Origin: Fibrisoma limi BUZ 3
GTDB lineage: Bacteria; Bacteroidota; Bacteroidia; Cytophagales; Spirosomataceae
Direction: 5' to 3'
DNA: 64,000 bases
Assembly: GCF_000296815.2 (NCBI RefSeq)
Contig: NZ_CAIT01000009.1
Span: forward strand, 124,001-188,000
Shown here: positions 3,397 to 61,526 of the stretch, one piece after another
Layout of the letters: each line of letters starts with the position of its first letter
Position numbering within the stretch: the stretch's first letter is position 1
Translations under genes and position numbers: made by a program
The notes under the pieces: generated by a model
The model's database searches: none
What the model was told of the DNA's origin: nothing
What the model saw: the letters and a program-made list of their open reading frames with translations, nothing else

Positions 3397-3464
3397 AAAG
3401 AGCGAAAGAGTGAATGAGCGAATGTTAGCGGAGCTTGTTTCGCTCATTCACTCTTTCGCTCTTT
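3397..3464. repeat. Long inverted repeat (26-bp perfect arms) made of 8-base words
   Basis: The left arm at 3397-3422 and right arm at 3439-3464 are perfect reverse complements over 26 bp, with a 16-base loop. The left arm and its flank are a near-tandem repeat of period 8 (gagtgaaa, gagcgaaa, gagtgaat, gagcgaat). It begins four bases beyond the crotonase stop and ends 13 bases before the SDR start. There is no T-tract. In RNA it could form a very strong hairpin between two cotranscribed genes. Confidence 0.9.
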
Positions 3465-3468
3465 ACAT

Positions 3469-4308
3469 TTAGTATCCCCTTTCGATTTTCTTGTTGAATT
3501 CGGCTTTTCGTTTGTCCAAAGTGGCCTGCATGGCTTCGCTGAAGTCGTCGGATTGCAGTTGCGACGAATTCCAGAGAGCGACGTATTGCAGGCCGTCTTC
3601 GATGGATTTATTAAAACTGTAGTTCAGCACCTGCTTGGCACCCTGCACTGCCCCGGCCGGATTTTCGGCAATTTTCTGGGCAAGAGCCTGCGCTTCGGCA
3701 AACAGATCGTCGGGAGTTTGATACACGTGATTGACCAGGCCAATCCTTTCGGCGAAGGCCGCGTCGTAATCGGCACCCGTGAAGGCCATTTCGCGGGTGT
3801 AGCCCTGACCGATAATGTTCGGCAGAAACTGTAGCCCACCTATATCGGGCGTAATGGCCAGCTTAGCTTCCCGCAGACTGAACTTAGCATCCCGCGAACA
3901 CAGCCGGATATCGGCGGCCGCAATCATGTTAACGCCCCCGCCAATGCACCAGCCGTGGATGGCCGCAATGATGGGCTTTGGCGACTGGTACATCTTCTGA
4001 AAACCCGACTGCATCCGGCGAATCTCAGCCATCAGTTCGATTCGCTGATGCGCGACCATCGTGCCGCTCGTCATCGTGCCCAGTCGCGGCATCATCCGTT
4101 GCAGATCCAGACCGTAACTGAAATGATCGCCACCACCCCGAAAAACAACGCACCGCACGTCGTGCATACCGTTGATCTCGTCCATTGCCTGGGGCAGCTC
4201 GTCCCAAAATTCCGGCCCCATGGCATTTCCTTTGCCCGGTCCTGTCAGCGAAACGGTCAGTATACCGTCGGTTTGTTCAAAAGCGAGTGATTGATACGTC
4301 TGGTTCAT
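3469..4308 (-). CDS. Crotonase-family enoyl-CoA hydratase/isomerase
   Basis: An enoyl-CoA hydratase/isomerase superfamily protein of 279 residues from the ATG at 4308 (MNQTYQSLAFEQTDG). An upstream in-frame ATG at 4380 would add 24 residues with no family resemblance and would run through the palindromic operator, so I reject it. Oxyanion-hole segments are FRGGGDHFSYGLDL and IHGWCIGGGVNMIAAADIR. An acidic residue in ITPDIGGLQFLP matches the delta(3,5)-delta(2,4)-dienoyl-CoA isomerase (ECH1) branch, which fits the dienoyl-CoA reductase-like gene just downstream. Together they would process fatty acids with double bases at odd positions. The precise reaction is inferred from family and neighbour. 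Confidence 0.87.
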   Translation of the reverse strand: MNQTYQSLAFEQTDGILTVSLTGPGKGNAMGPEFWDELPQAMDEINGMHDVRCVVFRGGGDHFSYGLDLQRMMPRLGTMTSGTMVAHQRIELMAEIRRMQSGFQKMYQSPKPIIAAIHGWCIGGGVNMIAAADIRLCSRDAKFSLREAKLAITPDIGGLQFLPNIIGQGYTREMAFTGADYDAAFAERIGLVNHVYQTPDDLFAEAQALAQKIAENPAGAVQGAKQVLNYSFNKSIEDGLQYVALWNSSQLQSDDFSEAMQATLDKRKAEFNKKIERGY

Positions 4309-4326
4309 ACTAGTATGCTTGCATAC
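4306..4326. promoter_or_regulatory. Nested palindromic operator candidate at the crotonase start
   Basis: Two overlapping palindromes share one half-site: CATACTAGTATG at 4306-4317 (perfect) and GTATGC-TT-GCATAC at 4313-4326. Together they give CATAC/GTATG half-sites in alternating orientation over the start codon and leader. A near-match to the -7 box on the minus strand (TACCTTTA, 4342-4335, one mismatch) lies just upstream, so a bound repressor would cover the likely transcription start. TetR- or GntR-like control is plausible; the regulator is unknown. Confidence 0.55.
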
Positions 4327-4384
4327 GGTTAGCGTAAAGGTAGTATTATTCTGATATTTTGTTGATTTGGCCCTTATCAACTTG

Positions 4385-5803
4385 TCAGGTCATGCGGCAC
4401 AATTGGCCTATCTGCTTTAACCCATCCAGGTAGGTAACTGTTGGCGGATGCCCATACGCAATACGTAAACAGGTAGCATACTGGGGTTGCGTCGTGAATA
4501 GATGTCCTGGATAGAACGTAATTCCAGCGCTGACGGCCTGAGTCAGAAGCGCAGCGGCTGAATACCCATCGGGAAGTTCGACCCACAGCACAAATCCACC
4601 CGCTGGCCGACTGACCGTTGTACCATCAGGGAAGCTGGTCAGGACCGCATCCAGATACGTCAGCATGTGTTTCTGAAGGGCAGCCCGCAGTTTTCGCAGG
4701 TGCAGATCGAACCGACCGATCCGCAAAAAATCGGCGATGGCGGCCTGCGTAATACGGGCCGGACTGATGGTCTGCATGAGTTGTGCCCGGATCACGGCTT
4801 CCTGATAGCGCCCCGGAAATACCCAACCGACCCGATAACCGGGGGCCAGTGTTTTCGACACCGATGAACAGAGTAGCACCCGCCCGGCCGTATCGAAACT
4901 GTGGCAGGTGCGCGGTCGGACGCTGCCAAAATACGTTTCGCCGTAGATATCGTCTTCAATCAGCGGCAGATCGTATCGGGCGAGCAGGTTCACCAGCGCG
5001 GCTTTACGCTCGTCGGCCATACAGTACCCGCTGGGATTACTAAACGTAGGGGTCAGCACCACGGCCCGAATCGATTCGTTGCGGATGGCCTGTTCGAGCG
5101 CTTCCAGATCAGGACCCGTTTGTGGGTGAGTCGGCAGTTCATACGCCCGAACACCCATGCCTTCCATTGCCTGCAAAATGCCGTAGTACGCTGGGGATTC
5201 GACCGCCACTACGTCGCCGGGCTGGGTCGTAGCTCGCAACGCCAGCGTAATGGCTTCCAGACAACCGTTGGTGACCACCACCTCGTCGGCCGATACGCGG
5301 CTTCCACCGTTGAACGACAGCCGGGCGATTTGCCGACGTAGTTCAGGCGAACCGGCCGTAGCCTCGTAGCCCAGACCGCTGTCCGGCAGTTGACGTACCG
5401 CCGTTAACAACGACTTGTTGAGCTTCGCCTGCGGGAGCAAGTCAAGACTTGGTACAGCCACGGCCAGATCAACAATGTCGGGTTGTGTCCAGCCCTTAGC
5501 CAGACTACGCATCGCTTCGCTGATGGTGATTGGCGTTGCCATCGGACGCGGCTGGCTGGTACGGGGTACTAGACCGGGCTGATTCCCCGCCGACCGTACG
5601 TAGTAGCCTGACTGTGGGCGAGAGACAATCAATCCGCGGGCTTCCAGATCGTAGTACGCCCGGAAGGCGGTCGTGACGCTAACGCCCTGCTCACGACTCA
5701 ATTGCCGAACCGAAGGCAACCGCTCACCCATCCGCAAAACACCCTGCTCAATCTGGTACCGAAGCTGGTCAGCCAGTTGGCGATATCGAAAGCCGTCTGT
5801 CAT
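4385..5803 (-). CDS. MocR/GntR-type regulator with aminotransferase domain
   Basis: A 472-residue fusion typical of the MocR (PdxR-like) family. Residues 1-75 are a GntR winged helix (YRQLADQLRYQIEQG, LPSVRQLSREQGVSVTTAFRAYYDLEARGLI). Residues about 110-470 are a fold-type I aminotransferase domain with VVVTNGCLEAITLALRA, LTPTFSNPSGY, EDDIYGE and the PLP-lysine motif SSVSKTLAPGYRVGW. Such proteins sense PLP or an amino compound and usually control a neighbouring divergent gene. Here the divergent neighbour is a PLP-dependent decarboxylase, 105 bases away, with a direct repeat in the gap. Regulation of that gene is inferred. Confidence 0.9.
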   Translation of the reverse strand: MTDGFRYRQLADQLRYQIEQGVLRMGERLPSVRQLSREQGVSVTTAFRAYYDLEARGLIVSRPQSGYYVRSAGNQPGLVPRTSQPRPMATPITISEAMRSLAKGWTQPDIVDLAVAVPSLDLLPQAKLNKSLLTAVRQLPDSGLGYEATAGSPELRRQIARLSFNGGSRVSADEVVVTNGCLEAITLALRATTQPGDVVAVESPAYYGILQAMEGMGVRAYELPTHPQTGPDLEALEQAIRNESIRAVVLTPTFSNPSGYCMADERKAALVNLLARYDLPLIEDDIYGETYFGSVRPRTCHSFDTAGRVLLCSSVSKTLAPGYRVGWVFPGRYQEAVIRAQLMQTISPARITQAAIADFLRIGRFDLHLRKLRAALQKHMLTYLDAVLTSFPDGTTVSRPAGGFVLWVELPDGYSAAALLTQAVSAGITFYPGHLFTTQPQYATCLRIAYGHPPTVTYLDGLKQIGQLCRMT

Positions 5804-5809
5804 ACATAC

Positions 5810-5848
5810 AACTGATATTGTTCTTTTTGCAAAAACTGGATCTGTTTC
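5810..5848. promoter_or_regulatory. Direct-repeat candidate MocR operator
   Basis: AACTGATATTGTTC (5810-5823) and AACTGGATCTGTTTC (5834-5848) form an imperfect direct repeat with a 24-base period, roughly two helical turns. It sits in the gap between the MocR gene (start 5803) and the divergent decarboxylase gene. Published MocR operators are often direct repeats. A -7-like box GAACTTTG (5866-5873, one mismatch to TAnnTTTG) would drive the decarboxylase. The assignment is an inference from position and pattern. Confidence 0.35.
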
Positions 5849-5908
5849 ATATTACAAACTTGGCAGAACTTTGCCCGACAAACAACTAATGAACAAACCA
5901 CTATCCGT

Positions 5909-7318
5909 ATGAACCTTATGCATCAGGAAGGCCAGCAATTTAAAGTACTGCTGGAGCTGGCCCAATCGCAGGCGCTTTCATATCTGCAAGGCTTACCCCA
6001 CATGCCAATCAGCCGACCTGCCCCCGTTCAACCCTCGGTTGATTTACCCGAGCGTGGCATGGGTACGTCAGCCGCTTTATCGCAGTTTCAGACCTATTTC
6101 TCGCAGGCGCTTGTCGCTTCGTCTGGTCCGCGCTACTGGGGGTTCGTGACGGGTGGCACTACGCCCGCGGCCATCGTTGGCGACTGGCTGACGGCCGTTT
6201 ACGACCAGAATCCGCAGAGTGTTACCGGGCCGGGCGATGTATCGGCGGCTATTGAACTACACACCCTTCAGCTCTACCGTCAGTTGTTTGGCTTGCCTGA
6301 CGGCTTTATGGGTGGTTTTGTAACGGGCGCAACGCTATCCAACTTTACCGCGCTGGCCGTAGCGCGGCAGTGGGCCGGTCAGCAGCTTGGCCACGACATT
6401 GCCCGCGACGGTGTTACGTCCGGTATTCGGATTCTGGCTGCGACGCCCCACTCGTCGGTCGTTAAGTCGCTGGCGATGCTGGGCCTCGGCAGCCGACACA
6501 TGACGTACATCCGGAAACCGGCCGACCGTGAAGCGATGGACGTAGCGCATCTGGAAGCGTTACTGGCTCAGCAACCCGACGTACCGACCATCCTGATTTC
6601 GAGCGGGGGCACGGTCAATACGGTAGATTACGACGACATGCAGGCCATTGCCGAACTCCAGAAACGGTATTCCTTCTGGTGGCACGTCGACGCGGCATTC
6701 GGAGGGTTCGCGGCCTTGTCGCCCCGTTTTCAGGACCGGCTGGCAGGTTGGGAACTGGCCGACAGCATCACCATCGACAACCATAAATGGCTGAACGTAC
6801 CTTACGACAATGCCGTGTACCTCATTAAATCCCATCACGCGACTTTGCAGGTTCAAACGTTTCAGAACTCCAACGCCCCGTATCTGGGCGACCCGCTGGC
6901 CGACTTTAGTTACCTGAACTACGGCCCCGAAAACAGCCGCCGACTGCGGGCGCTCCCCGTCTGGCTTACATTGCTGGCATACGGTCGGGAAGGGTACCGC
7001 CAGCTTGTGGAACAGAACGTGGAGCAGGCCTGTGCGTTCGGAGGACTGATTGACCAATCTGATTTCCTGCAACTCGAAGCGCCGGTACGGCTAAATGTGG
7101 TTTGTTTTTCGCTGAAGCAGTACCGGACTGATAAAGAGAAACTCACTCAATTCCAGAAAAAGCTGGAAGCGCTGGGTCAAGTCTTCATGACACCCACCGT
7201 CTACAACGGCGCTTACTGCCTGCGGGCAGCCTTCGTCAACTGGCGAACATCACCCGACGATCTGCGACTGGCGATGGAGAGTATGCAGGAAGCCTGGAAA
7301 GCCGTGCGCGAAGCATAA
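5909..7318 (+). CDS. PLP-dependent amino acid decarboxylase family protein
   Basis: A group II (glutamate/aromatic amino acid-type) PLP decarboxylase of 469 residues. Motifs: GFVTGGATLSN-like FVTGATLSNFTAL for phosphate binding, ISSGGTVNTVDYDD, WWHVDAAFGGF with the cofactor-binding Asp and stacking residues, and DSITIDNHKWLNVPYD with the Schiff-base Lys. The substrate cannot be read from the sequence. The divergent MocR-type regulator suggests expression controlled by an amino compound or PLP status. ATG codons at 5909 and 5918 are both possible; I use the first. An out-of-frame ATG at 5889 opens only a seven-residue reading frame. No terminator is visible before the next gene. Confidence 0.88.
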   Translation: MNLMHQEGQQFKVLLELAQSQALSYLQGLPHMPISRPAPVQPSVDLPERGMGTSAALSQFQTYFSQALVASSGPRYWGFVTGGTTPAAIVGDWLTAVYDQNPQSVTGPGDVSAAIELHTLQLYRQLFGLPDGFMGGFVTGATLSNFTALAVARQWAGQQLGHDIARDGVTSGIRILAATPHSSVVKSLAMLGLGSRHMTYIRKPADREAMDVAHLEALLAQQPDVPTILISSGGTVNTVDYDDMQAIAELQKRYSFWWHVDAAFGGFAALSPRFQDRLAGWELADSITIDNHKWLNVPYDNAVYLIKSHHATLQVQTFQNSNAPYLGDPLADFSYLNYGPENSRRLRALPVWLTLLAYGREGYRQLVEQNVEQACAFGGLIDQSDFLQLEAPVRLNVVCFSLKQYRTDKEKLTQFQKKLEALGQVFMTPTVYNGAYCLRAAFVNWRTSPDDLRLAMESMQEAWKAVREA

Positions 7319-7392
7319 TGAATTCATAAAGCACGGGTGGTTACGAAACCGTATTTTTACAACGCATCACTGTTCACCTTCCTGACCACCCT

Positions 7393-7887: not shown

Positions 7888-8042
7888 TCGGGCCGGTTAT
7901 TACCGTAGGCACGGAAGAATACATCACCGACCTCTGCGATACGTTCGATAAGGTAAAACAGCTACTGGACGTCGACGCTAATCGGGGTAATAAGCTGTAT
8001 CCGAACCTGCTGCACGACGCCTATCAATCCACTACGCTTGGG

Positions 8043-10627: not shown

Positions 10628-13320
10628 ACCCGGCGAACCAACCACCCCGAAACCGCACCAGCGGACCACCGCGCTGGGCCAAACGCCTGCTGCGGTGGCT
10701 GCACCCGGCCAACACACTGGAGGAAGTCGAAGGCGACCTCGATGAACTCTACGCCTACTGGTATGAGCGGGCCGGTGAGCCACAGGCCAGTCTGCGCTAC
10801 CTGCTCAACGTACTGTCGGTGATGCCCCCGTTTGTGCGCCGACGTCAGCAAGTAAATCCATATCCTCAACCCTCATCCTTCCATCCCGATATGATCCGTT
10901 CGTACGTTAAAATTGCCCTGCGGAACCTCTGGCGCAGTAAAGGCTACGCGGCCGTAAATGTGGTTGGCCTCTCCGTCGCCTTCTGCATCTGCCTGTTTTT
11001 GTTCCTTGTCGCTTACCGTCAGCTCACATTCGACTCATTCCATAAGGATGGCGATCGGATTTTCCAGACGTATCTTTTCGCTAATGACCCAGAGCGCGTC
11101 AGTCGGACGGGCGGGATGCCGTTGCCGCTGACACCGGCGCTGAAGGCCGAGTTTCCGGAGGTTGAGACCGCAGCCCGGGTGATGTCTGGGCGGCTGAGTC
11201 TGGTCGAATACCGGGGCAAGTTCTTCGACAAAATGGTTGTCCAGACAGACCCGGATTTTCTGACGTTGTTCTCCTTCCCGCTCATTAAAGGTAGCCCGGA
11301 TGTGGCGCTGCGTGACCTAAGCAGTATTGTGGTCAGCGAAACAATGGCAAAGACCGTATTTGGCAACGAAGATCCAGTTGGCAAATACCTGCTGATTGGC
11401 ACCGAAAGCAACAAAAAGCAGTACATCGTCTCCGGTATTATTGCCGATTCGCCGGACAATTCATCGGTCCGGTACGATGCGCTGGTTCGGATCGAAACGA
11501 CACCGAACTACCAGAACGACAAGGAGAACTGGCACGCAAACTCCCATCGGACTTTCATCAAAATAGTCCCCGAAGCCGATCAGGCAGCGGTTGAAGCCCG
11601 GCTGAAACCGTTTGCGCAGAAGTACTTTGCCGGTACGATACAAGACCTCCTCAAGAAAGGCGCAAAGCCTGATGACCGTGGTGACGTGTTTGCCATACGC
11701 TTGCAGAAGCTGGCCAACGTCCATTTCGACCGCGACGTATCCGACGGCAAAGGAGCCCCCATTGCGCTGATCTACGTACTGATTGGGATTGGCGTCTTCA
11801 TCCTGTCGATTGCCTCCATCAACTTCATCAACATGAGCATTGCACGGTCGTTCACCCGGGCTAAGGAAGTTGGAGTTCGCAAATCGCTGGGCGCTTTGAA
11901 AAATCAGCTTTTTGTCCAGATCTGGAGCGAATCCACGTTTATCTGTTTTATTGGTTTCGTTGTCGGCATTATCCTGACGTGCTTGTTGCTGGGTACGTTC
12001 AACACGACGTTCCAGGCTAAATTCACCTTAAGCTATGCGTTTCAGCCGGGATTCATTGCCTGGATGGCGGGCGTTTTTCTTGTCGTTACGCTCGTTGCCG
12101 GTGGTTATCCGGCCTGGCAAATGGCCCGGTTCAATGCGGTGGAGGTGCTGAAAGGGAAGGTATCTCTGAAGAAACCCGGACTTGTACGCAACGCATTGAT
12201 CGTTACGCAGTTTGCCATGTCGAGTCTGCTGGCCTGCTGCACCATCATTGCCATACAGCAGGTAGACCATATGCGCCGGCAGCCGGTCGGCTTTGACAAA
12301 GAACAGGTGATTAGCCTTCCGGTCGGCAATCAGGCGAATGGGCGGCAGGTACTTGGGCGTTTGCGCAACAAGCTGGCCAACGACCCAACCGTACTGGCGG
12401 TAACAGGTACGAGCATCAATCTGGGGAAAGGCAAAGACCGTGTTACGTCGCGAAGTACGTTCGGCTTTACGTATAAGGGCAAACAGATCGCGACGGACTG
12501 GCTGCTGGTGGATTACGATTACCTGAAAACGCTCAACATGAAGCTGCTGGCCGGCCGTGACTTTGACCCTGCATATGCCGCCGATTCGATCAATCGCGTA
12601 GTGGTGACGGAGAGCCTGGCCAAACTAATTAACGCCAGACAGCCGGTCGGCGCGTTTATTCGGGACGATTCGGACACAACGGGCACAAAGTCCGAAATTA
12701 TCGGCGTCGTTCCGGATTTTAAGTTGTATTCCGTAGCCGACGAAGCCCGGCCCATTGCGATGCATCTCTCCAACCGGGAAGACATCCACTACATTTTCGT
12801 TCGGGTAGCCCCGCAAAGCCTGGCTCAATCGATGGACAAGATAAAACAGATTTGGCGGGAGGTAGCCCCACAAGCGGAGTTCCTGGGTTCGTTCCTCGAC
12901 GAAAATGTGGACGGCTGGTACCAGAACGAAGAATCTATGTCGCAGATATTTAGTCTGGCGGCCAGTATCGCCATGCTGCTATCCTGCCTGGGGCTGTTTG
13001 CCATTGCTTTGCTGGTTATTGAGCAACGTACCAAGGAGATTGGCATTCGGAAGGTGATGGGGGCCAGCGTGGCCAGCATCATCATTGTACTGTCCCGCGA
13101 CTTCGTTAAACTGGTGATGATTGCCCTGGCGATTGCTATTCCCCTGGCCTGGTTCGGGATGCAGAAATGGCTCGACAACTACGCCGAGCGCATCACCATC
13201 AGCATCTGGATATTTTTAGCCGTTGGGCTGGTTTCTATACTGGTAGCGCTGGCGACTGTGAGCTTTCACAGCGTTAAAGCCGCTCTGATGAACCCAGTGA
13301 AGTCGCTTCGATCGGAATAA
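10624..13320 (+). CDS. ABC transporter permease, MacB/FtsX type
   Basis: A membrane protein of 898 residues from the ATG at 10624, which overlaps the PadR stop. Residues 1-85 are a soluble permease prefix domain (WAKRLLRWLHPANTLEEVEGDLDELY). Membrane segments follow near 100-125, 405-430, 455-480 and 505-525, with four more in the C-terminal half. MacB-type periplasmic domains lie between. Two FtsX cores are recognisable by VGVRKSLGALKNQL and IGIRKVMGASVASI. No ATPase gene is adjacent, so it must recruit one encoded elsewhere or act as a lone permease. Substrates of this group are largely unknown; export of antimicrobials or lipoprotein-type cargo is a family-level guess. Confidence 0.9.
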   Translation: MNPANQPPRNRTSGPPRWAKRLLRWLHPANTLEEVEGDLDELYAYWYERAGEPQASLRYLLNVLSVMPPFVRRRQQVNPYPQPSSFHPDMIRSYVKIALRNLWRSKGYAAVNVVGLSVAFCICLFLFLVAYRQLTFDSFHKDGDRIFQTYLFANDPERVSRTGGMPLPLTPALKAEFPEVETAARVMSGRLSLVEYRGKFFDKMVVQTDPDFLTLFSFPLIKGSPDVALRDLSSIVVSETMAKTVFGNEDPVGKYLLIGTESNKKQYIVSGIIADSPDNSSVRYDALVRIETTPNYQNDKENWHANSHRTFIKIVPEADQAAVEARLKPFAQKYFAGTIQDLLKKGAKPDDRGDVFAIRLQKLANVHFDRDVSDGKGAPIALIYVLIGIGVFILSIASINFINMSIARSFTRAKEVGVRKSLGALKNQLFVQIWSESTFICFIGFVVGIILTCLLLGTFNTTFQAKFTLSYAFQPGFIAWMAGVFLVVTLVAGGYPAWQMARFNAVEVLKGKVSLKKPGLVRNALIVTQFAMSSLLACCTIIAIQQVDHMRRQPVGFDKEQVISLPVGNQANGRQVLGRLRNKLANDPTVLAVTGTSINLGKGKDRVTSRSTFGFTYKGKQIATDWLLVDYDYLKTLNMKLLAGRDFDPAYAADSINRVVVTESLAKLINARQPVGAFIRDDSDTTGTKSEIIGVVPDFKLYSVADEARPIAMHLSNREDIHYIFVRVAPQSLAQSMDKIKQIWREVAPQAEFLGSFLDENVDGWYQNEESMSQIFSLAASIAMLLSCLGLFAIALLVIEQRTKEIGIRKVMGASVASIIIVLSRDFVKLVMIALAIAIPLAWFGMQKWLDNYAERITISIWIFLAVGLVSILVALATVSFHSVKAALMNPVKSLRSE

Positions 13321-13325
13321 GCTTC

Positions 13326-13357
13326 GTTCCGGCGTTAGTGCGTACTAACGCCGGAAC
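13326..13357. terminator. Bidirectional hairpin terminator candidate
   Basis: GTTCCGGCGTTAGT (13326-13339) and its exact reverse complement (13344-13357) form a 14-bp stem with a four-base loop. It lies between the converging permease and SDR genes, six bases after the permease stop. It lacks a T-tract, so termination is inferred from stem strength and position. Confidence 0.75.
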
Positions 13358-13377
13358 TGGCTACGTTACGATTCCGG

Positions 13378-14325
13378 CTATCCGCCACTCACCAAAGGTA
13401 GCCCTGAATTCCTCAGCAACGGCCGACGCAGGTAGTCGTAGATGCCCGTAAGCCGCTCGCTGAGCGCCCATAGCTGCTTCCCCAGCCTTCGGTTCTGCGC
13501 TTTGTCGCTGGGCGGATATGGTTTGCAATTAGCGAAATAAAGACCCGTTACGTGCTTGACCTCCGGCGACGACGCCAGGTAGATGTGAGTCCTGGCGGCT
13601 GTTTCGGGTTTGGGCGCAAAGAGTTTGAAGAACCAGAACGTGAAATTCAGCAGCCCACTGGCGTCTTCGCTGTTGCCGAACGCCGTATCGACCAGCCACG
13701 GGTGCAGGGCGTTGACCGTAATACCGTCGTCCATGAGCTGGTCAGCCAGTTCAAAGGTCCAGAGCAGCTTGGCCAGTTTGGAATCATCGTAGGCCGGAAT
13801 GGCACGATACGGTGCCTTGTCGCGCCGGACGATATGGCTCATGTCGAACTCAGCCAACCGGTGCAGTTCCGACGCTACGTTGAGGATACGGGCCTCGTCG
13901 CTTTTTCGCAGCAGGTCCAGCACCAGGTGCGTCAATAAAAAATGGCTCAGGTAATTGGTCTGAAACGTCAGTTCAACCCCCTCCGGTGAGTACTGCAACG
14001 TATCGACCACCCGACCGGCGTTGTTGATCAGAACATCCAGCCGATCGTAGCGGCTATGCATCTCCTCCGACGCGCGGTAGATGTCGTCCATTCTCCCTAA
14101 ATCGCACTGAATCAGGTCAACATGACCCGTTCGGCTGGCCGCCAGAATCTCGGCCTGCTGCCGTCGGCTCCGGTCGGCATCACGACAAATCATGATGATG
14201 TCGAATCCCTGTTTGGCCAGTTCCAGAGCAGTTACTTTACCCAAACCGGAATTAGCGCCGGTGATGGCACAGATACGAGGCTGTTGCATGGCTACGGTCG
14301 TCTGTTTACGTCCGAAACTAAACAT
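13378..14325 (-). CDS. SDR oxidoreductase, retinol dehydrogenase-like
   Basis: A short-chain dehydrogenase of 315 residues. The nucleotide-binding motif TGANSGLGKVTALELA is near residues 18-33, with CRDADRSR following, which fits NADP preference. Later motifs are LINNAGRV, NYLSHFLLTHL and catalytic YDDSK (YxxxK). The overall arrangement is that of the retinol dehydrogenase/WWOX-like group, which in bacteria has unknown substrates. Possible starts are 14325 and an internal ATG at 14289 (MQQPRICAITG); the first 12 residues add little. It is divergent from the FMN reductase at 14369, and both could share the short 43-base gap. Confidence 0.85.
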   Translation of the reverse strand: MFSFGRKQTTVAMQQPRICAITGANSGLGKVTALELAKQGFDIIMICRDADRSRRQQAEILAASRTGHVDLIQCDLGRMDDIYRASEEMHSRYDRLDVLINNAGRVVDTLQYSPEGVELTFQTNYLSHFLLTHLVLDLLRKSDEARILNVASELHRLAEFDMSHIVRRDKAPYRAIPAYDDSKLAKLLWTFELADQLMDDGITVNALHPWLVDTAFGNSEDASGLLNFTFWFFKLFAPKPETAARTHIYLASSPEVKHVTGLYFANCKPYPPSDKAQNRRLGKQLWALSERLTGIYDYLRRPLLRNSGLPLVSGG

Positions 14326-14368
14326 CTAACCACGTAGTTACTAAACCATATTGAATGGACCTAGAGGT

Positions 14369-14968
14369 ATGAACATCGCCGTAATCGCTACGTCATCACG
14401 CAAAAACAGCAACTCCCTCCGCTTCGGAAACTACGTCCGCAAAGTATTGACTGAGTCGGGGCAGCATGAAGTCAGCGTCGTTGACTTTGAAGACTATGAT
14501 ATTCCGTATGTCGGGCAGGGTTCGGTAAAACCCGATGCACTGACGCCATTTCAGCAGAAGCTGATCCAGGCATGGCAAAACGCTGACATTGTTATCTTCG
14601 CCATGCCCGAGTATAACTGGACCGCCCCTCCCCAGGCTACCAACGCGATTCATCAGTTGGGAGGGCCGCATTTTAAGTATCTGTTTGAAGGTAAAGTGTT
14701 TGCCATGGTTGGGGTTTCCAACGGCCGGGGTGGCCGGCAACCGGCACTCGATATGACGACGGTGGTGAACAAAGTAATCAGCTTCACCAACAGCTACTCG
14801 ATCGTATCGCCCAAGCTGTATGAATCGCACGAAACCGACAAGAACCTGGATGAGAGCGGTCACTTTGTGGGCCATGAAGTTTACGCCCGCACGTCGAAAG
14901 CGTTCTTCGATTACACGCTGAACGTTGCCCAACGCTGGCTGCAGCCGACATTGGTCGAAAAAGTTTAA
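14369..14968 (+). CDS. NADPH-dependent FMN reductase-like protein
   Basis: A flavodoxin-fold reductase of 199 residues from ATG 14369; a TTG six codons upstream (14351) is less likely. It has IAVIATSSRKNSNSLR near the N-terminus for FMN phosphate binding, ADIVIFAMPEYNWTAPPQATNAI, and VGVSNGRGGRQPAL. The family reduces FMN, quinones, azo dyes or chromate with NADPH; the natural role is uncertain. It is divergent from an SDR and converges on the cysteine desulfurase, from which it is separated by the strongest inverted repeat in the window. Confidence 0.88.
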   Translation: MNIAVIATSSRKNSNSLRFGNYVRKVLTESGQHEVSVVDFEDYDIPYVGQGSVKPDALTPFQQKLIQAWQNADIVIFAMPEYNWTAPPQATNAIHQLGGPHFKYLFEGKVFAMVGVSNGRGGRQPALDMTTVVNKVISFTNSYSIVSPKLYESHETDKNLDESGHFVGHEVYARTSKAFFDYTLNVAQRWLQPTLVEKV

Positions 14969-14972: not shown

Positions 14973-15061
14973 GGAGGAAAGCCGGAGAGGAGGAAGGGAG
15001 AAAAGGAAAAATGCACAGTCGGCAATTCCTTTTCTCCCTTCCTCCTCTCCGGCTTTCCTCC
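14973..15061. repeat. 36-bp perfect inverted repeat, purine-rich arm
   Basis: The left arm 14973-15008 and right arm 15026-15061 are exact reverse complements over 36 bp, with a 17-base loop. The left arm is almost all purine and is made of ggagg/gaaa-type words; the 14-mer GGAGAAAAGGAAAA at 14997-15010 also occurs at 33138-33151. It fills the gap between two converging genes: four bases after the FMN reductase stop and directly abutting the cysteine desulfurase stop. There is no T-tract. A bidirectional terminator is possible but the stem is far longer than needed. Confidence 0.93.
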
Positions 15062-25466: not shown

Positions 25467-25535
25467 ACTAGTCCAACGTGTTTGCGTAAACATAACAACG
25501 TTCGGCCCTGAATTGCTAATTTCGCGCCCAAATCA

Positions 25536-25594
25536 GTTTGTGGTTCGTCGTTCGTGGTTGTCGTTGGACTAACTACGAACGACAAACCACAAAC
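25536..25594. repeat. Inverted repeat with ACAAACC triplication upstream of metG
   Basis: The arms 25536-25555 and 25575-25594 pair over 20 bp with one mismatch (19-base loop). The right side continues as three tandem copies of ACAAACC (25583-25603). It lies between two divergent genes, 14 bases before the metG ATG, so it is not a terminator of either gene. A -7-like TAATTTCG (25517-25524, one mismatch) would place it inside the metG leader RNA. Confidence 0.85.
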
Positions 25595-25607
25595 CACAAA
25601 CCACGAT

Positions 25608-33074: not shown

Positions 33075-33250
33075 GAAAAAAGGAGGAAAGGGAAAAGAGG
33101 GAAAAGGGGAAGAAAGGAGGGGGAGGAAAGGAGGAAAGGAGAAAAGGAAAATCAATCCATACCACCTCCTCCCCTTTCCTTCCCTTCCTCCCCCTTTTCC
33201 CTCTCCTCCTCTCCTCCCCCTTTTCCCTTTCCTCCCTCCTCCCTTTCTCC
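33075..33250. repeat. 77-base polypurine plus 86-base polypyrimidine inverted repeat
   Basis: 33075-33151 is an uninterrupted run of 77 purines and 33165-33250 an uninterrupted run of 86 pyrimidines on the same strand, separated by 13 mixed bases. The two runs pair imperfectly along most of their length; a perfect 16-bp block joins 33082-33097 to 33220-33235. The element fills most of the gap between the divergent helicase and CBS genes. Such sequence can form hairpin, cruciform or triplex (H-DNA) structures. Confidence 0.93.
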
Positions 33251-33750: not shown

Positions 33751-33818
33751 GACGGTCGATAGCCGAGCCTGGTGATCGGCTACGTTAAACCGATAACCTT
33801 TATCGACTATCGACCGTC
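33751..33818. repeat. Branched (three-stem) inverted repeat
   Basis: An outer 12-bp stem (GACGGTCGATAG 33751-33762 with 33807-33818) encloses two small hairpins: AGCCGA/TCGGCT (33761-33766 with 33776-33781, sharing two bases with the outer stem) and CGATA/TATCG (33791-33795 with 33801-33805). It starts five bases after the CBS stop and ends before the Nudix promoter. It could form a Y-shaped RNA or cruciform; it has no T-tract. Confidence 0.75.
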
Positions 33819-38551: not shown

Positions 38552-38599
38552 GTTTCAGGTTCAACGTTGTGGAAGCATCAACAACGTTGAACCTGAAAC
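38552..38599. repeat. 19-bp perfect inverted repeat in a convergent gap
   Basis: The arms GTTTCAGGTTCAACGTTGT (38552-38570) and its exact complement (38581-38599) have a 10-base loop; an outer TAACG/CGTTA pair (38541-38545 with 38605-38609) extends it. The left arm contains near-tandem words (CAGGTTT, CAGGTTC). It lies between the acidic-protein gene and the convergent ABC exporter gene, and can act as a bidirectional terminator, though without a T-tract. Confidence 0.88.
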
Positions 38600-40425: not shown

Positions 40426-40499
40426 CAGTTTACCGTTTAGAGTTTTTCCGTTCAACGGTAATTGGCATCCCCAATTATTGGACAGAAAACCGTAAACTG
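40426..40499. repeat. Imperfect inverted repeat with nested hairpins
   Basis: CAGTTTACCGTTT (40426-40438) pairs with 40487-40499, 12 of 13 bases. Inside are CCGTT-c-AACGG (40448-40458) and AATTGG/CCAATT (40460-40465 with 40471-40476). It sits between the divergent ABC exporter and DUF4126 genes. GAAAACCGTAAA (40485-40496) and TTTTCAGTTT (40422-40431) both recur in the repeat at 57143-57231. Confidence 0.75.
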
Positions 40500-41176: not shown

Positions 41177-42499
41177 TTACTTTTCGAATTCAACTACGTA
41201 CTCCGAAAGGTACACACTCTTTTCGGGTAGGATATCTTTAACGAAGAGCCGGGCTTTCTGACCAAGCTTCAGGCAGGTACGCTTTTGGGCAATGTCCTCG
41301 GGCGTGTTCATCGGTTGCAGCGAGGGGTACCACAAAAAATGCCCGGGTCGGCTCAGGAGCAACTGCGGTTTGCTCCATTGCTGGGCGTTATCGCCCTTGC
41401 CCAGGTCAGCGTTGGTGTTGAAGGAAATGAAGATGTCGCTGCCCGCCCAAGACGGTCCAACTACCTTACCCATTAGCATCACCCAGGCATTGAGGTACGT
41501 GTTCCAGCTTACCGATGGTCCCCAGTGGAATCCCCCTGTAGGCGACGAAGCGGCACCACCTCCTTCCGCCCGTGGAATCTGAAGCGAGGCTATGGGCGCA
41601 CCAATGCCGTTGGGCAAGGCATTGAAGCCACGACCATCCCAGCGCCGGGCTTTCCCGACCGGGTTGTCCAGATCCGACAGCCGGATACGCGCTACGCTGA
41701 TGCACTGGCCCTTGTATTCGTTTTCAGGTCGGTAAGTCGCCGGCTGGTACGTACCGGGATAGCCGTATTCGCCGTAAAACAGGTACAGGTAATCACCACT
41801 GGCCACGGCCGACGGATCGCCCACGCCCCCGGCGAAGGTGTTCGACGTATTGTGCGGCTTCAGAATCATCCGGGGCTGGAGGTCCTCAATGAACAGGCCG
41901 CGGTTATCCCAGCTTCGACCACCATCGGTCGATTTCATGATGCCGATCCGGCACACGGCCGCCGGAGACGTTGGGCCTTTTAGCCCCTGCGGCCAGTTTT
42001 TGTTGATATAGCCTTCGCCGGTTTTCGGGTCGTAAGGCAGCGTTGACGGGTAGTTTTCGTTGTGGTAAACCGCGTAGAGCGTTCTGCCGGAACGGTCACG
42101 AGCATCCTGATAAACGGTTTCGAACCAGACAGCCCCGTGTAGCCCGGCTTTACCGATGGGCGCATTGTCGGGTATTTTGGGCGTACGGAACTCCTCAGCC
42201 TTTCGGCTGAACGCTTCGTCGGCGTTTCGTCCATCCGCAAACTTCAGGTCGTCAGCATAGCCCCAGAGCGGGTCCTCGCCGTGCTTGCCCGGAAAAATCC
42301 GGAACGTATCGCCAACCCAGGCTTCGGCCATGTTACAGTCGACGAAGGAGTTGAAATAAAACGTCTGGCCAGGTACCAGTTTAAATTTAGGCGTAGCGGT
42401 GGGTCGGTCAACGGAAAGCTGGCTCACCGGCAAAAAGCCGACTCCAACGATGAGCATCCCACCCACCGCGGCTACTGCGAGCATTCTCTGTACGTTCAT
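41177..42499 (-). CDS. Secreted propeller-like protein with an Asp-box
   Basis: A 440-residue protein with an N-terminal signal/anchor segment (about 1-25). It contains a sialidase-type Asp-box (STDGGRSWDNRG) and repeated strands such as VGDPSAVASGDYLYLFYGEYG and SVSWNTYLNAWVMLMGKVVG. These suggest a five- or six-bladed propeller like those of sialidases and family 43/117-type glycosidases. Catalytic residues cannot be assigned. It should act in the periplasm or at the surface, probably on sugars. No carbohydrate genes surround it. Family name not recognised. Confidence 0.75.
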   Translation of the reverse strand: MNVQRMLAVAAVGGMLIVGVGFLPVSQLSVDRPTATPKFKLVPGQTFYFNSFVDCNMAEAWVGDTFRIFPGKHGEDPLWGYADDLKFADGRNADEAFSRKAEEFRTPKIPDNAPIGKAGLHGAVWFETVYQDARDRSGRTLYAVYHNENYPSTLPYDPKTGEGYINKNWPQGLKGPTSPAAVCRIGIMKSTDGGRSWDNRGLFIEDLQPRMILKPHNTSNTFAGGVGDPSAVASGDYLYLFYGEYGYPGTYQPATYRPENEYKGQCISVARIRLSDLDNPVGKARRWDGRGFNALPNGIGAPIASLQIPRAEGGGAASSPTGGFHWGPSVSWNTYLNAWVMLMGKVVGPSWAGSDIFISFNTNADLGKGDNAQQWSKPQLLLSRPGHFLWYPSLQPMNTPEDIAQKRTCLKLGQKARLFVKDILPEKSVYLSEYVVEFEK

Positions 42500-42546
42500 G
42501 GGCCTAAAAGCTCAGGCGCCGTCGGTTTTACTAATCGCCTGAACAC

Positions 42547-42632
42547 AACGAACCGGCGTGTCTGTCGGATTGATTTGTTTCAACATCTAGTCAGTTGTCT
42601 CCACGCCAATCCGGCAAACACACCGGTTCGTT
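42547..42632. repeat. Spaced inverted repeat before the propeller gene
   Basis: AACGAACCGG (42547-42556) and CCGGTTCGTT (42623-42632) are exact complements 66 bases apart, in the 151-base gap between htpG and the secreted propeller gene. The long spacing makes a hairpin weak. It may be two copies of an operator half. Confidence 0.35.
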
Positions 42633-42650
42633 CGCCATATTCACAATTTA

Positions 42651-52488: not shown

Positions 52489-52489
52489 C

Positions 52490-52901: not shown

Positions 52902-52943
52902 AATCGCCCGGCCAATACAGTCAATCGTATTGGCCGGGCGATT
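52902..52943. terminator. Strong bidirectional terminator
   Basis: AATCGCCCGGCCAATAC (52902-52918) and its exact complement (52927-52943) form a 17-bp stem with an 8-base loop, followed by GCTTTAT. It lies between the 54-residue peptide gene and the convergent feoB. Confidence 0.88.
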
Positions 52944-57124: not shown

Positions 57125-57142
57125 AATCGGTAGTTGGTATTT

Positions 57143-57231
57143 GGTTTACGGTTTTCAGTTTTCGGCTGTACGAGATTGCGTTAGTCCGCCGGAGCACTGG
57201 AGCGCCGAAATCGTAAACCGAAAACCGTAAA
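57143..57231. repeat. Two-block inverted repeat inside the ccm operon
   Basis: TTTACGGTTTTC (57145-57156) pairs exactly with 57220-57231, and inside it TTTCGGC (57160-57166) pairs with GCCGAAA (57204-57210). It lies between ccmB and ccmC, which are otherwise expected to be one transcript. GAAAACCGTAAA and TTTTCAGTTT recur at 40485-40496 and 40422-40431. Confidence 0.78.
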
Positions 57232-57242
57232 TTGTAAGAAAA

Positions 57243-57902: not shown

Positions 57903-57935
57903 TTCGGGGTTACTTTTCGTTACCTGATTACCATT

Positions 57936-58193: not shown

Positions 58194-58242
58194 TGATGTC
58201 CTATTACATAGGTCGGACGTCCACCATTAACGATTACGTACA

Positions 58243-58683
58243 ATGAAACTTTCTCACATCTTCGGCATCATCGTTATCGCCATTGCCATTGCTATCATCG
58301 TTTCTACCGCCGGCGACGCCAGTTCGTACGTGACCTTCACTCAGGCTGCTCAGATGGCCAAGGATGGTAACGACGATATGATTCACGTGGTCGGCAAACT
58401 GAAAAAAGATGCTGCCGGGCAGATCGAAGGGTTGTTTTATCAGCCCGAGATGGACCCCAATCATTTTGAGTTCACGCTCGTCGACAACGATAACCGAGTG
58501 CAGAAGGTGGTGTATAACGCGCCGAAGCCGCAGGATTTCGATCGGTCGGAGCAGGTTGTCGTGATCGGCTCGATGCAGGACGACCACTTTCAGTGCAACA
58601 AGATTCTGCTGAAGTGCCCATCGAAGTATCAGGACGGCAAGCTGGAAACCACCGAACACGAGGCCAAAACGGCTAAGCTGTAA
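58243..58683 (+). CDS. ccmE: Heme chaperone CcmE, Cys-type
   Basis: A 146-residue membrane-anchored OB-fold protein: anchor at about 5-22 (IFGIIVIAIAIAIIVST), beta barrel to about 125. Ordinary CcmE binds heme covalently through His in a HxxxY motif. Here the site reads KCPSKY: Cys125 then Tyr129 (CxxxY), the variant described in some archaea and Desulfovibrio. A second Cys118 precedes it. It should receive heme from CcmC and pass it to CcmF. The change of ligand is visible in the sequence; its effect is known only by analogy. Confidence 0.9.
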   Translation: MKLSHIFGIIVIAIAIAIIVSTAGDASSYVTFTQAAQMAKDGNDDMIHVVGKLKKDAAGQIEGLFYQPEMDPNHFEFTLVDNDNRVQKVVYNAPKPQDFDRSEQVVVIGSMQDDHFQCNKILLKCPSKYQDGKLETTEHEAKTAKL

Positions 58684-58755
58684 GGTGTTGGGTGGCGCGA
58701 CACAGTTTGTGCTCTGCCACTTATTCAATACTTCATTGATTCAATCATTCAACCA

Positions 58756-61464
58756 ATGATCCATACAACGGTCGGTAATATCGGTCACTTCTTTGTCATT
58801 CTGTCGTTTGTAACGGCGTTGGTCTCGACGATCGCGTATCTGCTCGTGGCTCTTTCTCAGCGTAAGGCTGATAGCGCTCCTGTTGAGTTCGAGCGCGCAG
58901 AGCGACTGGAATACGCCGAAGTGACCAGTGCAGGGGCCGGTCGGACCAGTATTCCGGTTTCTTCCAAACGCCCCAGAACCGACAAGAAAACTCCGTCTGG
59001 CAAGGCAGCCGTTGCCGGTAAGGCGGGTGAACCCCGCAACGACTGGCGGATGCTGGCCCGCTGGGCTTTTTATGTTCATGGCGTGGCGGTTGTGGGTATC
59101 GTAGGCGCTTTGTTCTACATTGTCAGCAATCACTATTTCGAGTACCATTACGCGTGGAGCTACTCGTCAAAAGCGCTCCCGGCCGAATATATCATCTCCA
59201 GTTTCTGGCACGGCCAGGAGGGTAGTTTCCTGCTCTGGATTTTCTGGAATGCGGTGCTGGGTGTGATCCTGATCAACACAAACCGAAAGTGGGAAGCGCC
59301 GATGATGATGGTGTTTGCCCTTGTGCAGGCTTTTCTGGCGTCGATGATTCTGGGGGTTGTGTTCGGCGATACATTAAAGATTGGCTCATCGCCGTTCCTG
59401 TTGCTGCGGGAAGCCATGCCCGACGCACCCATCTTCGCGACCGACCCGCTGTTTGTTCCGGAAGATGGGAAAGGCATGAATCCGCTGCTCCAGAACTACT
59501 GGATGGTGATTCACCCCCCTACTCTATTTTTAGGTTTTGCCCTGACCCTGGTTCCGTTTGCTTACTGCATGGCCGGGCTATGGCGTAACCAGCCGCTCGA
59601 ATGGATTCGGCCGGCGCTGCCCTGGACCCTGCTGGGTGCCATGATTCTGGGCGTCGGGATTATGATGGGTGGCTACTGGGCCTACGAAACCCTCAACTTC
59701 GGTGGCTACTGGAACTGGGATCCCGTCGAAAATGCCGTGTATGTACCGTGGTTGATTATGGTGGCCGCGCTGCATACCATGCTCATCGCCAAGCGCAGTT
59801 CTACCGGCCTGAAAACGGCTATTATCCTGACGATCGCCCAGTTTATCCTGATTTTGTACTCTACGTTCCTGACCCGGAGTGGTATTCTCGGTAATGCGTC
59901 GGTACACTCGTTTACGGATTTGGGCCTGTCGGGTCAACTGTTGGTTTATCTGTTTGCGTTTATTATCCTGTCCGTTTTCCTGGCGGCCCGTAAGTGGAAA
60001 CTCATCCCGAGCGATGAGCAGGAAACCTCGGTATACACGAAAGAGTTCTGGCTCTTTATCGGCGCTACGGTGCTGTGCCTGGCAGGTTTTCAGGTGATTG
60101 CAACCACATCGATTCCGGTATACAACAGCATTCTGGAGTCGTTTGGTAAGGTATCAAATCTCGCGCTGCCGGTCGATCAGATTGCTCACTACAACAAGTT
60201 CCAGATCTGGTTCTTTGCCATTATTGCATTGCTGTCGGGCATTGGTCAGTACATGTGGTGGCGGAAAGTAGAGAACCGAAACTGGAATGCCCTCGTAACG
60301 CCGGCTATTCTCACCCTGTTGATCAGTGCGGGATTGATTGCCTTCGGTGAAGTTCGGAACCCCGTATACATGGCTCTGCTGGTAGCTTCGGTATTCGCTA
60401 TTGTCGCTAACGGTACCATTCTGCTGGGTGTTATTCGGGGTAACTATCGACTGTCGGGTGGTGCAGTAGCCCATATTGGTATGGCACTCATGCTCATCGG
60501 CGTCTTGTTTTCATCGGGCTACTCCCGGGTTATTTCGCTGAACAACAGTGGCATTCTGATTTCGCGCTCCGAAGACTTCACCAAGAACGACAATAAGGAA
60601 AACAAAGAGAACGTCCTGCTCTGGCTGAACCAGTCCGAACGGATGGATCAGTATCAGCTAACGTACCGCGGTCAGCGTATTGAAGCACGCGACGTACCTG
60701 GTTATTTTCCGCGTTCATGGGTACAGCTCATCGAGGGTGATTTCCACGGCATTGCGCTACGCGATATCGACGTCAACGGCAAAGTCTACCATAAAAAAGG
60801 GGATACGCTGGCCCTCTTTCCTGAAAATATTTTCTACGAGGTTGAGTACCGTGAGCCAAGTGGCAAAATCTTTACGTTGTATCCGCGACTTCAGGTCAAC
60901 GAACGGATGGGCGTAGTGTTATCACCAGATATTAGCCGTAAGGTCGGCCGCGATCTTTACACGTACGTAGCAACAGCCCCCGATCCAACGGCCGAAGATC
61001 AGTGGGACAAAACCGAAACGTACAGTGTAGCCTTAAAGGATACATTTTTCCTGAATGATTATGTGGCGATTCTGGACGATGTAGTACGTACAAACGACGT
61101 TGATGGTACGGAACTTGGCCCGAACGATGCTGCCGTAAAGGCGCAGGTGCGGGTACTGGACAAAAACGGTGAGCATATCCTGTCGCCGGCATTCATTATC
61201 AAAGACCGCCTGGTTGGTCGCCGGGCCGAAACGAATGAAGAGCTGGGCCTTCGCATCCAGTTGAACGAAATTGACCCCCGTACCGGCAAATTCACCTTCG
61301 CCGTTAACCGAAAGCAGCGCGATTACATCGTCCTGAAAGCCTTTGAAAAGCCGCTCATCAATGTCCTTTGGATCGGTACGTTCATTCTGGTCATTGGCTT
61401 CCTGATGGCAACGGTCCGTCGGTACCGCGAATTTTCGAAAATGCGGAACAAGGGCATGGCATAA
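58756..61464 (+). CDS. ccmF: Cytochrome c maturation protein CcmF
   Basis: A large heme-handling membrane protein of 902 residues, the heme ligase part of cytochrome c maturation. The WWD region is MMGGYWAYETLNFGGYWNWDP (a segment, about 310-330) and VIHPPTLFLGFALT lies before it. About 15 membrane helices are visible. A long charged linker (about 60-100, KRPRTDKKTPSGKAAVAGK) separates the first and second helices. The C-terminal third is a periplasmic domain with a final helix. Ccm F/CcsA naming overlaps in this lineage. No CcmG, CcmH or CcmI lies nearby. Confidence 0.92.
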   Translation: MIHTTVGNIGHFFVILSFVTALVSTIAYLLVALSQRKADSAPVEFERAERLEYAEVTSAGAGRTSIPVSSKRPRTDKKTPSGKAAVAGKAGEPRNDWRMLARWAFYVHGVAVVGIVGALFYIVSNHYFEYHYAWSYSSKALPAEYIISSFWHGQEGSFLLWIFWNAVLGVILINTNRKWEAPMMMVFALVQAFLASMILGVVFGDTLKIGSSPFLLLREAMPDAPIFATDPLFVPEDGKGMNPLLQNYWMVIHPPTLFLGFALTLVPFAYCMAGLWRNQPLEWIRPALPWTLLGAMILGVGIMMGGYWAYETLNFGGYWNWDPVENAVYVPWLIMVAALHTMLIAKRSSTGLKTAIILTIAQFILILYSTFLTRSGILGNASVHSFTDLGLSGQLLVYLFAFIILSVFLAARKWKLIPSDEQETSVYTKEFWLFIGATVLCLAGFQVIATTSIPVYNSILESFGKVSNLALPVDQIAHYNKFQIWFFAIIALLSGIGQYMWWRKVENRNWNALVTPAILTLLISAGLIAFGEVRNPVYMALLVASVFAIVANGTILLGVIRGNYRLSGGAVAHIGMALMLIGVLFSSGYSRVISLNNSGILISRSEDFTKNDNKENKENVLLWLNQSERMDQYQLTYRGQRIEARDVPGYFPRSWVQLIEGDFHGIALRDIDVNGKVYHKKGDTLALFPENIFYEVEYREPSGKIFTLYPRLQVNERMGVVLSPDISRKVGRDLYTYVATAPDPTAEDQWDKTETYSVALKDTFFLNDYVAILDDVVRTNDVDGTELGPNDAAVKAQVRVLDKNGEHILSPAFIIKDRLVGRRAETNEELGLRIQLNEIDPRTGKFTFAVNRKQRDYIVLKAFEKPLINVLWIGTFILVIGFLMATVRRYREFSKMRNKGMA

Positions 61465-61476
61465 TCGTTAATTAGT

Positions 61477-61526
61477 CAGTTGGTCAGCCGAGCTATGCAG
61501 GTGTGCATGGTTTGGCTGACCAACTG
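61477..61526. repeat. 13-bp perfect inverted repeat with inner hairpin
   Basis: CAGTTGGTCAGCC (61477-61489) pairs exactly with 61514-61526. Inside, ATGCA-ggtg-TGCAT (61495-61508) forms a second stem. It lies 12 bases after ccmF and ends 10 bases before the next start codon. It has no T-tract, although TTTTTG follows the right arm after GG. Confidence 0.8.

Follow-up and report, generated by a model that had tools for sequence, protein, structure and literature searches.

Short-loop and long-loop intergenic hairpins in Fibrisoma limi, with arms that template switching may partly keep complementary

Hairpins in the window

The window considered here is a stretch of 64,000 nucleotides from Fibrisoma limi BUZ 3 (G000:C6:124001-188000), part of a 7.63-Mb genome of the family Spirosomataceae, Bacteroidota. 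Many of the gaps between its genes hold long inverted repeats, here called hairpins, which are the subject of this analysis. Genes were predicted by a simple codon-usage caller written for this work, and their start positions are approximate. Inverted repeats were scored with +1 for a match and −2 for a mismatch, and a score of at least 12 was taken as a hairpin. Most of the window is collinear with the genome of a congener, most probably Fibrisoma montanum HYT19 and called F. montanum below, at a DNA identity of ~83-89%.

An initial annotation of this DNA had listed ten such repeats, and all of them are present, at most a few bases from where they had been placed (Table 1). The weakest, at 40426-40499, is absent from lists drawn up at a score of at least 12. 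Shuffled intergenic sequence is far poorer in long stems. In effect, 11 of the 44 gaps of at least 25 bp reach the cut-off, against a mean of 0.16 and a maximum of 2 in 50 within-gap dinucleotide shuffles; at a score of at least 14 there are 9 gaps against 0.02 in shuffles, and at a score of at least 10, 14 against 0.80. A similar excess is found over C6:1-268000, which includes the window, where a hairpin occurs in 41 of 158 gaps; the mean over 20 shuffles is 0.15, and length-matched coding windows give 0.6. A chance origin of the hairpins is rejected, as shuffles and the coding control give almost none. When both strands of the 64000 bases were searched for Rfam families, no match reached the gathering score.

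It had also been claimed that the arms stay perfect and that most repeats lack a T-tract. The first is not always so, as the pair at 33082 is 73-80% complementary and that at 33751 79%. The second is borne out: nine of the ten have no TTTT on the 3′ side of the + strand, the exception being 61477. At 14973 and 33081 there is AAAA on the 5′ side, that is, a T-run on the opposite strand.

Table 1. Inverted repeats in intergenic gaps of the window and their state in F. montanum
Position	Gap	Inverted repeat	F. montanum
3397..3464	tandem (- strand)	long-loop word hairpin, 26-bp perfect arms, 16-nt loop; words AAAGAGCG/AAAGAGTG/AATGAGCG	
13326..13357	convergent	short-loop hairpin, 14-bp perfect	orthologous gap with a different hairpin, TGGGGCATGGGG
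14973..15061	convergent	long-loop polypurine/polypyrimidine hairpin, 36-bp perfect, 17-nt loop	arms reorganised
25536..25601	divergent	long-loop word hairpin, GTTTGTGG family; end adjoins methionyl-tRNA synthetase start codon	one compensated change and several single changes
33075..33250	divergent	imperfect polypurine/polypyrimidine compound inverted repeat	right half expanded
33751..33818	tandem (+)	compound branched inverted repeat	outer arms retained, inside altered
38552..38599	convergent	hairpin, 19-22 bp	loop inverted relative to the window
40426..40499	divergent	weak long-loop inverted repeat, 13 bp, one mismatch	left arm identical
42547..42632	tandem (-)	long-loop hairpin, 26 nt, 88% complementary; additional to the initial annotation	many changes, pairing retained
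52902..52943	convergent	short-loop hairpin, 17-bp perfect; candidate loop inversion; additional to the initial annotation	
57143..57231	tandem (+)	long-loop word hairpin, TTTACGG/TTTTCAG words	orthologous gap without hairpin
61477..61526	tandem (+)	short-loop hairpin, then T-run	

Two kinds of hairpin

A wider survey covered 85 sequences (3.13 Mb, mostly from Spirosomataceae) and found 495 hairpins in 2052 gaps. These were divided into 232 short-loop hairpins, with a loop of at most 9 nt, and 263 long-loop hairpins, with a loop of at least 10 nt; the long-loop class is defined solely by loop length and is not pure. The 9/10-nt boundary and the score of 12, as well as the length of 12 and the four differences used in the scan described below, were chosen by the authors. 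With respect to neighbouring genes, hairpins number 205 in 324 convergent gaps, 261 in 1240 tandem gaps and 29 in 488 divergent gaps, the long-loop kind accounting for 86, 157 and 20 of these, and both kinds are scarce in divergent gaps. The three divergent cases reported for the window (25.5, 33.1 and 40.4 kb) are genuine, but their placement is unusual in the larger sample.

Intrinsic (Rho-independent) bidirectional terminators consist of a stem and a T-tract and lie between convergent genes. Short-loop hairpins share all three features. In tandem gaps, read on the sense strand, TTTT stands on the 3′ side of 54 of 104 of them and on the 5′ side of 9, which is the one-sided T-run of an intrinsic terminator. 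By contrast, tandem long-loop hairpins show no such one-sidedness, with 31 of 157 on the 3′ side and 24 on the 5′ side. Between convergent genes, T-runs and A-runs are placed outside, as in bidirectional terminators, at 45 and 48 of 119 short-loop hairpins (reversed, 2 and 7) and at 24 and 31 of 86 long-loop ones (reversed, 2 and 6); therefore, some terminators lie within the long-loop group. Mismatches in the stem, again on the sense strand, have a GU:AC ratio of 20:10 in short-loop hairpins, a lean that is weak by itself, and of 48:41 in long-loop ones. Judging from these sequence features, short-loop hairpins look like mainly intrinsic transcription terminators, often bidirectional, and long-loop word hairpins would mostly be something else.

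As a consequence, intrinsic terminators are rejected as the sole explanation, on the tandem long-loop T-run counts given above. The initial annotation had reached the view that terminators cannot account for every member, and the tandem long-loop hairpins, with neither a one-sided T-tract nor a clear GU bias, support it; the single class that it proposed has to be given up, since the two kinds differ in T-tracts and periodicity. The near-tandem words of about 7-8 bases that it described are real as a property of the group, in hairpins with loops of at least 10 nt only: there, arm autocorrelation is 0.362 at lag 7 and 0.368 at lag 8, compared with 0.29-0.30 in shuffled arms (five stretches). 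For tandem long-loop hairpins, the median distance to the stop codon upstream is 17 nt and that to the next start codon downstream 63 nt. In the window, the short-loop members at 13326, 52902 and 61477 fall with the group of terminator anatomy, and the long-loop members at 3397, 14973, 25536, 33082 and 57145 in the separate group, while 38552 is intermediate, its loop being measured as 4 nt or 10 nt.

Changing sequence at a stable place

Comparisons between species rest mainly on two pairs, one of Fibrisoma and a closer one of Spirosoma. Arm identity and the rewriting scans cover gaps shorter than 900 bases, and the listing of one-species hairpins covers gaps of up to 700 bases. Among 313 orthologous Fibrisoma gaps, a hairpin is present in both species in 44, in the window's species only in 30, in F. 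montanum only in 18, and in neither in 221. Occupancy is thus strongly associated between the species (44/74 versus 18/239; odds ratio 18, p 1e-19). When gaps are classed by their best hairpin, F. montanum holds a hairpin at 22 of 39 long-loop and 22 of 35 short-loop gaps of the window's species. F. montanum C20:983-986 kb, when mapped onto the window's genome, gave no match.

Sequence is kept less well than place. In the Fibrisoma pair, the 40-nt flanks have an identity of 0.887, hairpin-free gaps one of 0.761 and short-loop arms one of 0.762; the value falls to 0.669 in long-loop arms and to 0.50 in long loops. The corresponding values in the Spirosoma pair are 0.951, 0.893, 0.920, 0.876 and 0.792, and the difference between hairpin classes is small there. 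At C6:59092, C6:137321 and C6:382111 the hairpin has been replaced in place by one built from another set of words. As occupancy of orthologous gaps is conserved, selection for the hairpin probably acts too; for the long-loop kind, place-keeping may be due to selection, to a mutational hot spot or to the two together.

Probable footprints of template switching

A rewriting scan looked for stretches of at least 12 nt that differ from their orthologue in at least four columns and are the exact reverse complement of a nearby stretch, no more than 150 nt away, in the sequence of the other species. Identical searches with the reverse only and with the complement only served as controls, and three settings were tried. 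Such stretches occur in 8 of 185 gaps of the Spirosoma pair (controls 0 and 0) and in 13 of 306 gaps of the Fibrisoma pair (controls 2 and 1), or in 21 of 491 gaps together, against 2 and 1; they have the form of quasipalindrome correction, in which one arm becomes the complement of the other. Twenty of the 21 lie in the 139 gaps with a hairpin score of at least 12 in either species and one lies in the 352 gaps without, and none was found in coding segments (0/165 and 0/226, or 0/391). A strict filter retains a stretch only if no forward stretch of the other species matches it with fewer than three mismatches; it leaves 5 in Spirosoma and 8 in Fibrisoma (controls 0 and 1), and for the pairs combined 13 against controls of 1 and 0.

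Several loci illustrate what such changes look like. For instance, at X215611 the left arm is ragged in one species and matches, in the other, a nearly unchanged right arm. At AA454822, six changes turn a stem with a one-sided A-run into a perfect 17-bp hairpin with a T-run, and at X123771 and X229801 the loop is inverted between species. In a separate test, the loop proved inverted in 4 of 101 comparable hairpins (30 species pairs), small numbers that stand against one reverse-only and no complement-only case. Two of the four inverted loops are at least 7 nt long, and that at 38552 in the window is one of these; its stem also differs from that of F. montanum by TT/AA to GG/CC.

Whole blocks may change in both arms as well. 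At 3397, F. montanum carries a 26-nt stretch as exact complements in its two arms, of which ~15-18 nt are missing from both arms in the window's species. The rewriting scan flagged this gap, which fails the strict filter because words recur within it. Similarly, the outer part of the 26-bp stem at X270387 has been replaced in both arms between two Spirosoma species. The initial annotation had named two findings that would speak against a class, namely equally many long stems in shuffled sequence and a lack of compensating changes in relatives; neither was borne out, as shuffles give far fewer stems and the arms of the relative carry both compensating and block changes.

Polarity and word families

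Long-loop hairpins are also polar. Within the window's genome, G exceeds C in the 5′ arm of 36 of them, C exceeds G in 9 and the two are equal in 1 (p 7e-5); the counts are 25 against 9 once arms with fewer than three pyrimidines are removed. When both Fibrisoma species are taken together, G-rich 5′ arms outnumber C-rich ones in every type of gap (tandem 44:12, convergent 28:2, divergent 7:1), compared with 41:46 for short-loop hairpins; orthologous hairpins of the two species are both counted in the resulting 79:15, and one genome alone gives 36:9. Since an inverted repeat is identical on both strands, a G-rich 5′ arm characterises the element itself, not the composition of a strand.

The words themselves vary. 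By eye, Fibrisoma arms fall into several unrelated word families, so no single GTAG/CGTC-tagged palindromic consensus was found among them; a GTAG-type repeat was seen in Spirosoma fluviale. One recurrent pattern, the GTTYGTRG double word, has 84 matches in the window's genome, 204 in F. montanum, 26 in a further genome (G005) and 0-3 in the other family members searched, and is present in 12 of 59 genomes searched. Its arms have one fixed order: 8:0 by script in F. montanum stretches, 5:0 by eye in G005 and, among the matches listed, 11:0 by eye in the window's genome. A genome of a different family (G055) has 33 matches, all clustered on three contigs and many arranged as direct arrays. A vocabulary shared across the phylum had been expected, but the single pattern examined did not support it, as AACCGCAAAGRCGCAAAG occurs in 3 of 148 genomes.

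Two observations on word arrays belong here. In G055, which is of the same order, dense GTTCGTAG heptamer arrays, many of them direct, occupy C9:75352-81560, C23:45912-46318 and C42:10257-10383. In the S. fluviale stretch (L156-L165), a dispersed repeat, GTAGTRCCGACCGTCCCGGTCGGG, is found once within a GTTTGTAGT word arm, and there are CACAGAG word arms whose inner block is present in both arms.

Origin and maintenance of the hairpins

The explanation favoured here, with a probability of about 0.6, is that two kinds of hairpin are mixed and that their arms are partly kept complementary by template switching. The species comparisons show concerted block changes, one-arm rewriting, loop inversions and fast arm divergence while hairpins are kept. 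In the proposed mechanism, replication would stall at a hairpin, and the stalled replication would copy one arm onto the other by template switching (quasipalindrome correction), in both kinds. This copying would sometimes turn the loop round. Slippage between near-tandem words could create new sequence, which would then spread to the other arm; stalling, slippage and the order of events are all conjectural. Selection for the hairpin at 3′ ends would probably add to this, and surely does so in the short-loop kind. The initial annotation had suggested active maintenance by template switching. Concerted block changes, rewriting in 21 of the 491 gaps and loop inversions suggest that it was right in kind for part of the hairpins, because multi-base complementary changes and the turning of loops are unexpected from point mutation plus selection; it is not the sole force.

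Long-loop hairpins would then be sequence-unstable DNA hairpins, found for the most part immediately after stop codons and in convergent gaps. The view taken here is that they would mostly be tolerated and self-renewing, with a minority acting as terminators. Their placement behind stops and their scarcity in divergent gaps fit a 3′-end role or exclusion from promoters alike.

A number of observations weigh against this explanation. With regard to divergence, the remainder of hairpin-holding gaps is also more variable than hairpin-free gaps (0.716 versus 0.761). Changes at single positions are found too: 28 Fibrisoma hairpins have 132 single, 39 double and 26 both-sided non-complementary changes (14 without orthologue excluded), and 37 Spirosoma hairpins have 46, 20 and 15 (3 without orthologue excluded). 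Moreover, the authors of PMC8604942 mention earlier work of theirs in which short inverted repeats of proteobacterial non-coding DNA were more conserved than their surroundings, and the long-loop arms behave in the opposite way. As for the scan, its events are few, and repeat arrays and low complexity can inflate it. Its gap controls are not empty, coding segments gave two reverse-only matches, and at a looser setting (11 nt, three differences) the Fibrisoma pair had 26, with 8 and 7 in the controls. Three matches are doubtful, namely X249861 and X279297, which are repeat arrays, and AA157062, the low-complexity polypurine at 33.1 kb of the window. Of five loops flagged as inverted in the Fibrisoma comparison, three were accepted; mispaired loops reach an equal reverse-complement-minus-forward difference in 119 of 1892 cases, and the one reverse-only loop in the control has to be added. 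With a single congener, no event is polarised: the S. fluviale outgroup gap was retrieved for one of eight Spirosoma hairpins, and its arms could not be aligned. The 85 surveyed sequences include close relatives, which makes the hairpin counts non-independent.

The G-rich 5′ arm is left unexplained by template switching, and polarity is uneven: 35:4 in the first Fibrisoma stretches, 22:7 in S. fluviale and 79:42 at other loci, with none in the pair S. lacussanchae/sordidisoli (25:22). Short-loop convergent Fibrisoma hairpins lean the opposite way (13:30). Finally, GTTYGTRG read backward, as a control, gave 0 matches in the window's genome and F. montanum, but 12 in G019 and 1-4 in seven other genomes.

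The alternative that survives best, though still unlikely, is that all the hairpins mark RNA 3′ ends, as intrinsic or Rho-linked terminators or RNA stabilisers, and are under selection, with covariation arising by ordinary compensatory substitution. Such a role agrees with their enrichment behind genes and between convergent genes, their scarcity in divergent gaps, the conserved occupancy of orthologous gaps and the T-tracts of the short-loop class. In addition, visual inspection of compensated pairs in the close Spirosoma pair showed mostly transitions, which could have proceeded via a GU pair. Nevertheless, this alternative does not account for tandem long-loop hairpins that have neither a one-sided T-tract nor a clear sense GU bias, it does not lead one to expect multi-base rewriting of one arm or inversion of the loop, and hairpins do occur between divergent genes too.

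Spread by mobile hairpin elements, of the repetitive extragenic palindromic (REP)/REPIN or small-dispersed-repeat type, is improbable. Arms would match here because copies arrive whole as they jump between gaps, which agrees with the GTTYGTRG double words, frequent in few genomes and fixed in arm order. Among the hairpins listed as present in one species only, two (C6:520342 and C6:658290) are clean insertions, which agrees with it as well. However, for most hairpins of that list the gap is similarly long in both species and its sequence has changed in place, and matches to the Y1 transposase are marginal (24.4 and 22.7 bits in the window's genome and 27.1 in F. montanum, at a cut-off of 23). 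RAYT-driven spread in Fibrisoma is not favoured, because these Y1_Tnp matches are marginal only. Even less credible is whole import by inter-strain recombination, or an origin as low-complexity products, with no arm-to-arm process: the replacements at C6:59092, C6:137321 and C6:382111 and the low complexity of polypurine arms would suit it, but import does not cause a new arm to complement the old arm beside it in the recipient, nor does it invert a loop between kept arms, and same-gap shuffles give almost no stems.

A further possibility, tentative and somewhat against the odds, is that long-loop word hairpins constitute a new self-homogenising intergenic DNA element of Spirosomataceae. Such an element would be polar, its 5′ arm being poor in C on either strand and independently of gene order. 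Its sequence would change fast while its place stays fixed, and it would be maintained as a hairpin mainly by replication rather than by encoded content. If this is true, the hairpins would serve as a natural record of template switching at the replication fork. Template switching itself is an established process, and the polar word hairpins appear to be a new variant. In open-access literature, judged by title and the start of the abstract, no description of polar word hairpins in Bacteroidota was found, and a search with sequence words returned only papers unrelated by title.

The origin and persistence of long perfect stems have long posed a question, to which selection on RNA is the usual answer. 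The gaps offer natural replicates in large number, and in them the effects of mutation can be distinguished from those of selection, because sense GU bias, T-tracts, arm rewriting and loop inversion each leave a mark of their own. They also caution against taking covariation, or the persistence of a hairpin in a bacterial gap, as proof of a functional RNA.

Comparison with known systems

In Escherichia coli, a quasipalindrome template switch rewrites one arm of an imperfect inverted repeat from the other, which leaves the repeat more perfect (PMC7202029). One-arm rewriting of this kind is inferred here; there, it was demonstrated in reporters, whereas here species are compared at many natural intergenic hairpins. 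Template switching is described as creating and maintaining RNA hairpins, with multi-base compensatory changes and loop inversions as its footprints (PMC8794818). These footprints recur in the present data, but in bacterial gaps whose arms diverge faster than hairpin-free spacer, and not in rRNA and microRNA genes under strong selection. RNA stems are also described there as having an excess of G-C over C-G pairs, tied to the direction of the template switch, and the polarity found here has the same sign. In yeast, arm homogenisation and spacer inversion have been reported for coding inverted repeats (PMC8604942); both footprints are shared, although those repeats are coding and compared among strains, while these are non-coding and compared among species.

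Other likenesses concern the repeats rather than the process. Bacterial heptanucleotide repeats, such as TAACTGA, occur as direct repeats, with one indirect case among those described in PMC4679880. Like the present words, they are intergenic near-tandem heptamers, and some are from Bacteroidetes; the words here form inverted repeats. GTAG/CGTC-tagged REPs and REPINs are likewise dispersed intergenic palindromes, and are present in some relatives here, but the Fibrisoma word hairpins comprise several word families in varying register, and no clear RAYT-type transposase was found.

The small dispersed repeats of cyanobacteria are reportedly very small hairpin elements, some within heptamer arrays, that have family consensus sequences. 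In contrast to such families with a consensus, the hairpins here mostly change in place.

Other hairpins and single loci

Some additional elements were noted along the way. Inverted elements with arms like TTTTTGTCATGCTGACGCAGGAAGC and TTTTGTCATCCCGACGCCAGGAGGGATC occur in F. montanum in gap 13312-13819 of G001:C20:120001-140000 (L119) and at the C11 orthologue of C6:520342; the latter is missing from the window's species as a clean 91-nt difference.

Within the window, the divergent gap at 25467-25607, next to the methionyl-tRNA synthetase gene, has a TAATTTCG stretch directly before its hairpin, which resembles the consensus of the Bacteroidota -7 box. Therefore, the hairpin at 25536 may occupy the 5′ untranslated region of that gene. 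The gap at 42485-42650, with its long-loop hairpin, could be a structured leader or a terminator.

Lastly, a constant apex, GCAAC-3 nt-GTTGC, on a variable perfect stem of 22-24 bp occurs in the window's genome in the tandem gaps 85-386, 6957-7156 and 14324-14467 of G000:C6:20001-40000 (L107), and a hairpin of the same type lies in another tandem gap, 69-264 of G001:C20:160001-180000 (L121). Possibly, these are operators of one regulator or a separate hairpin family.

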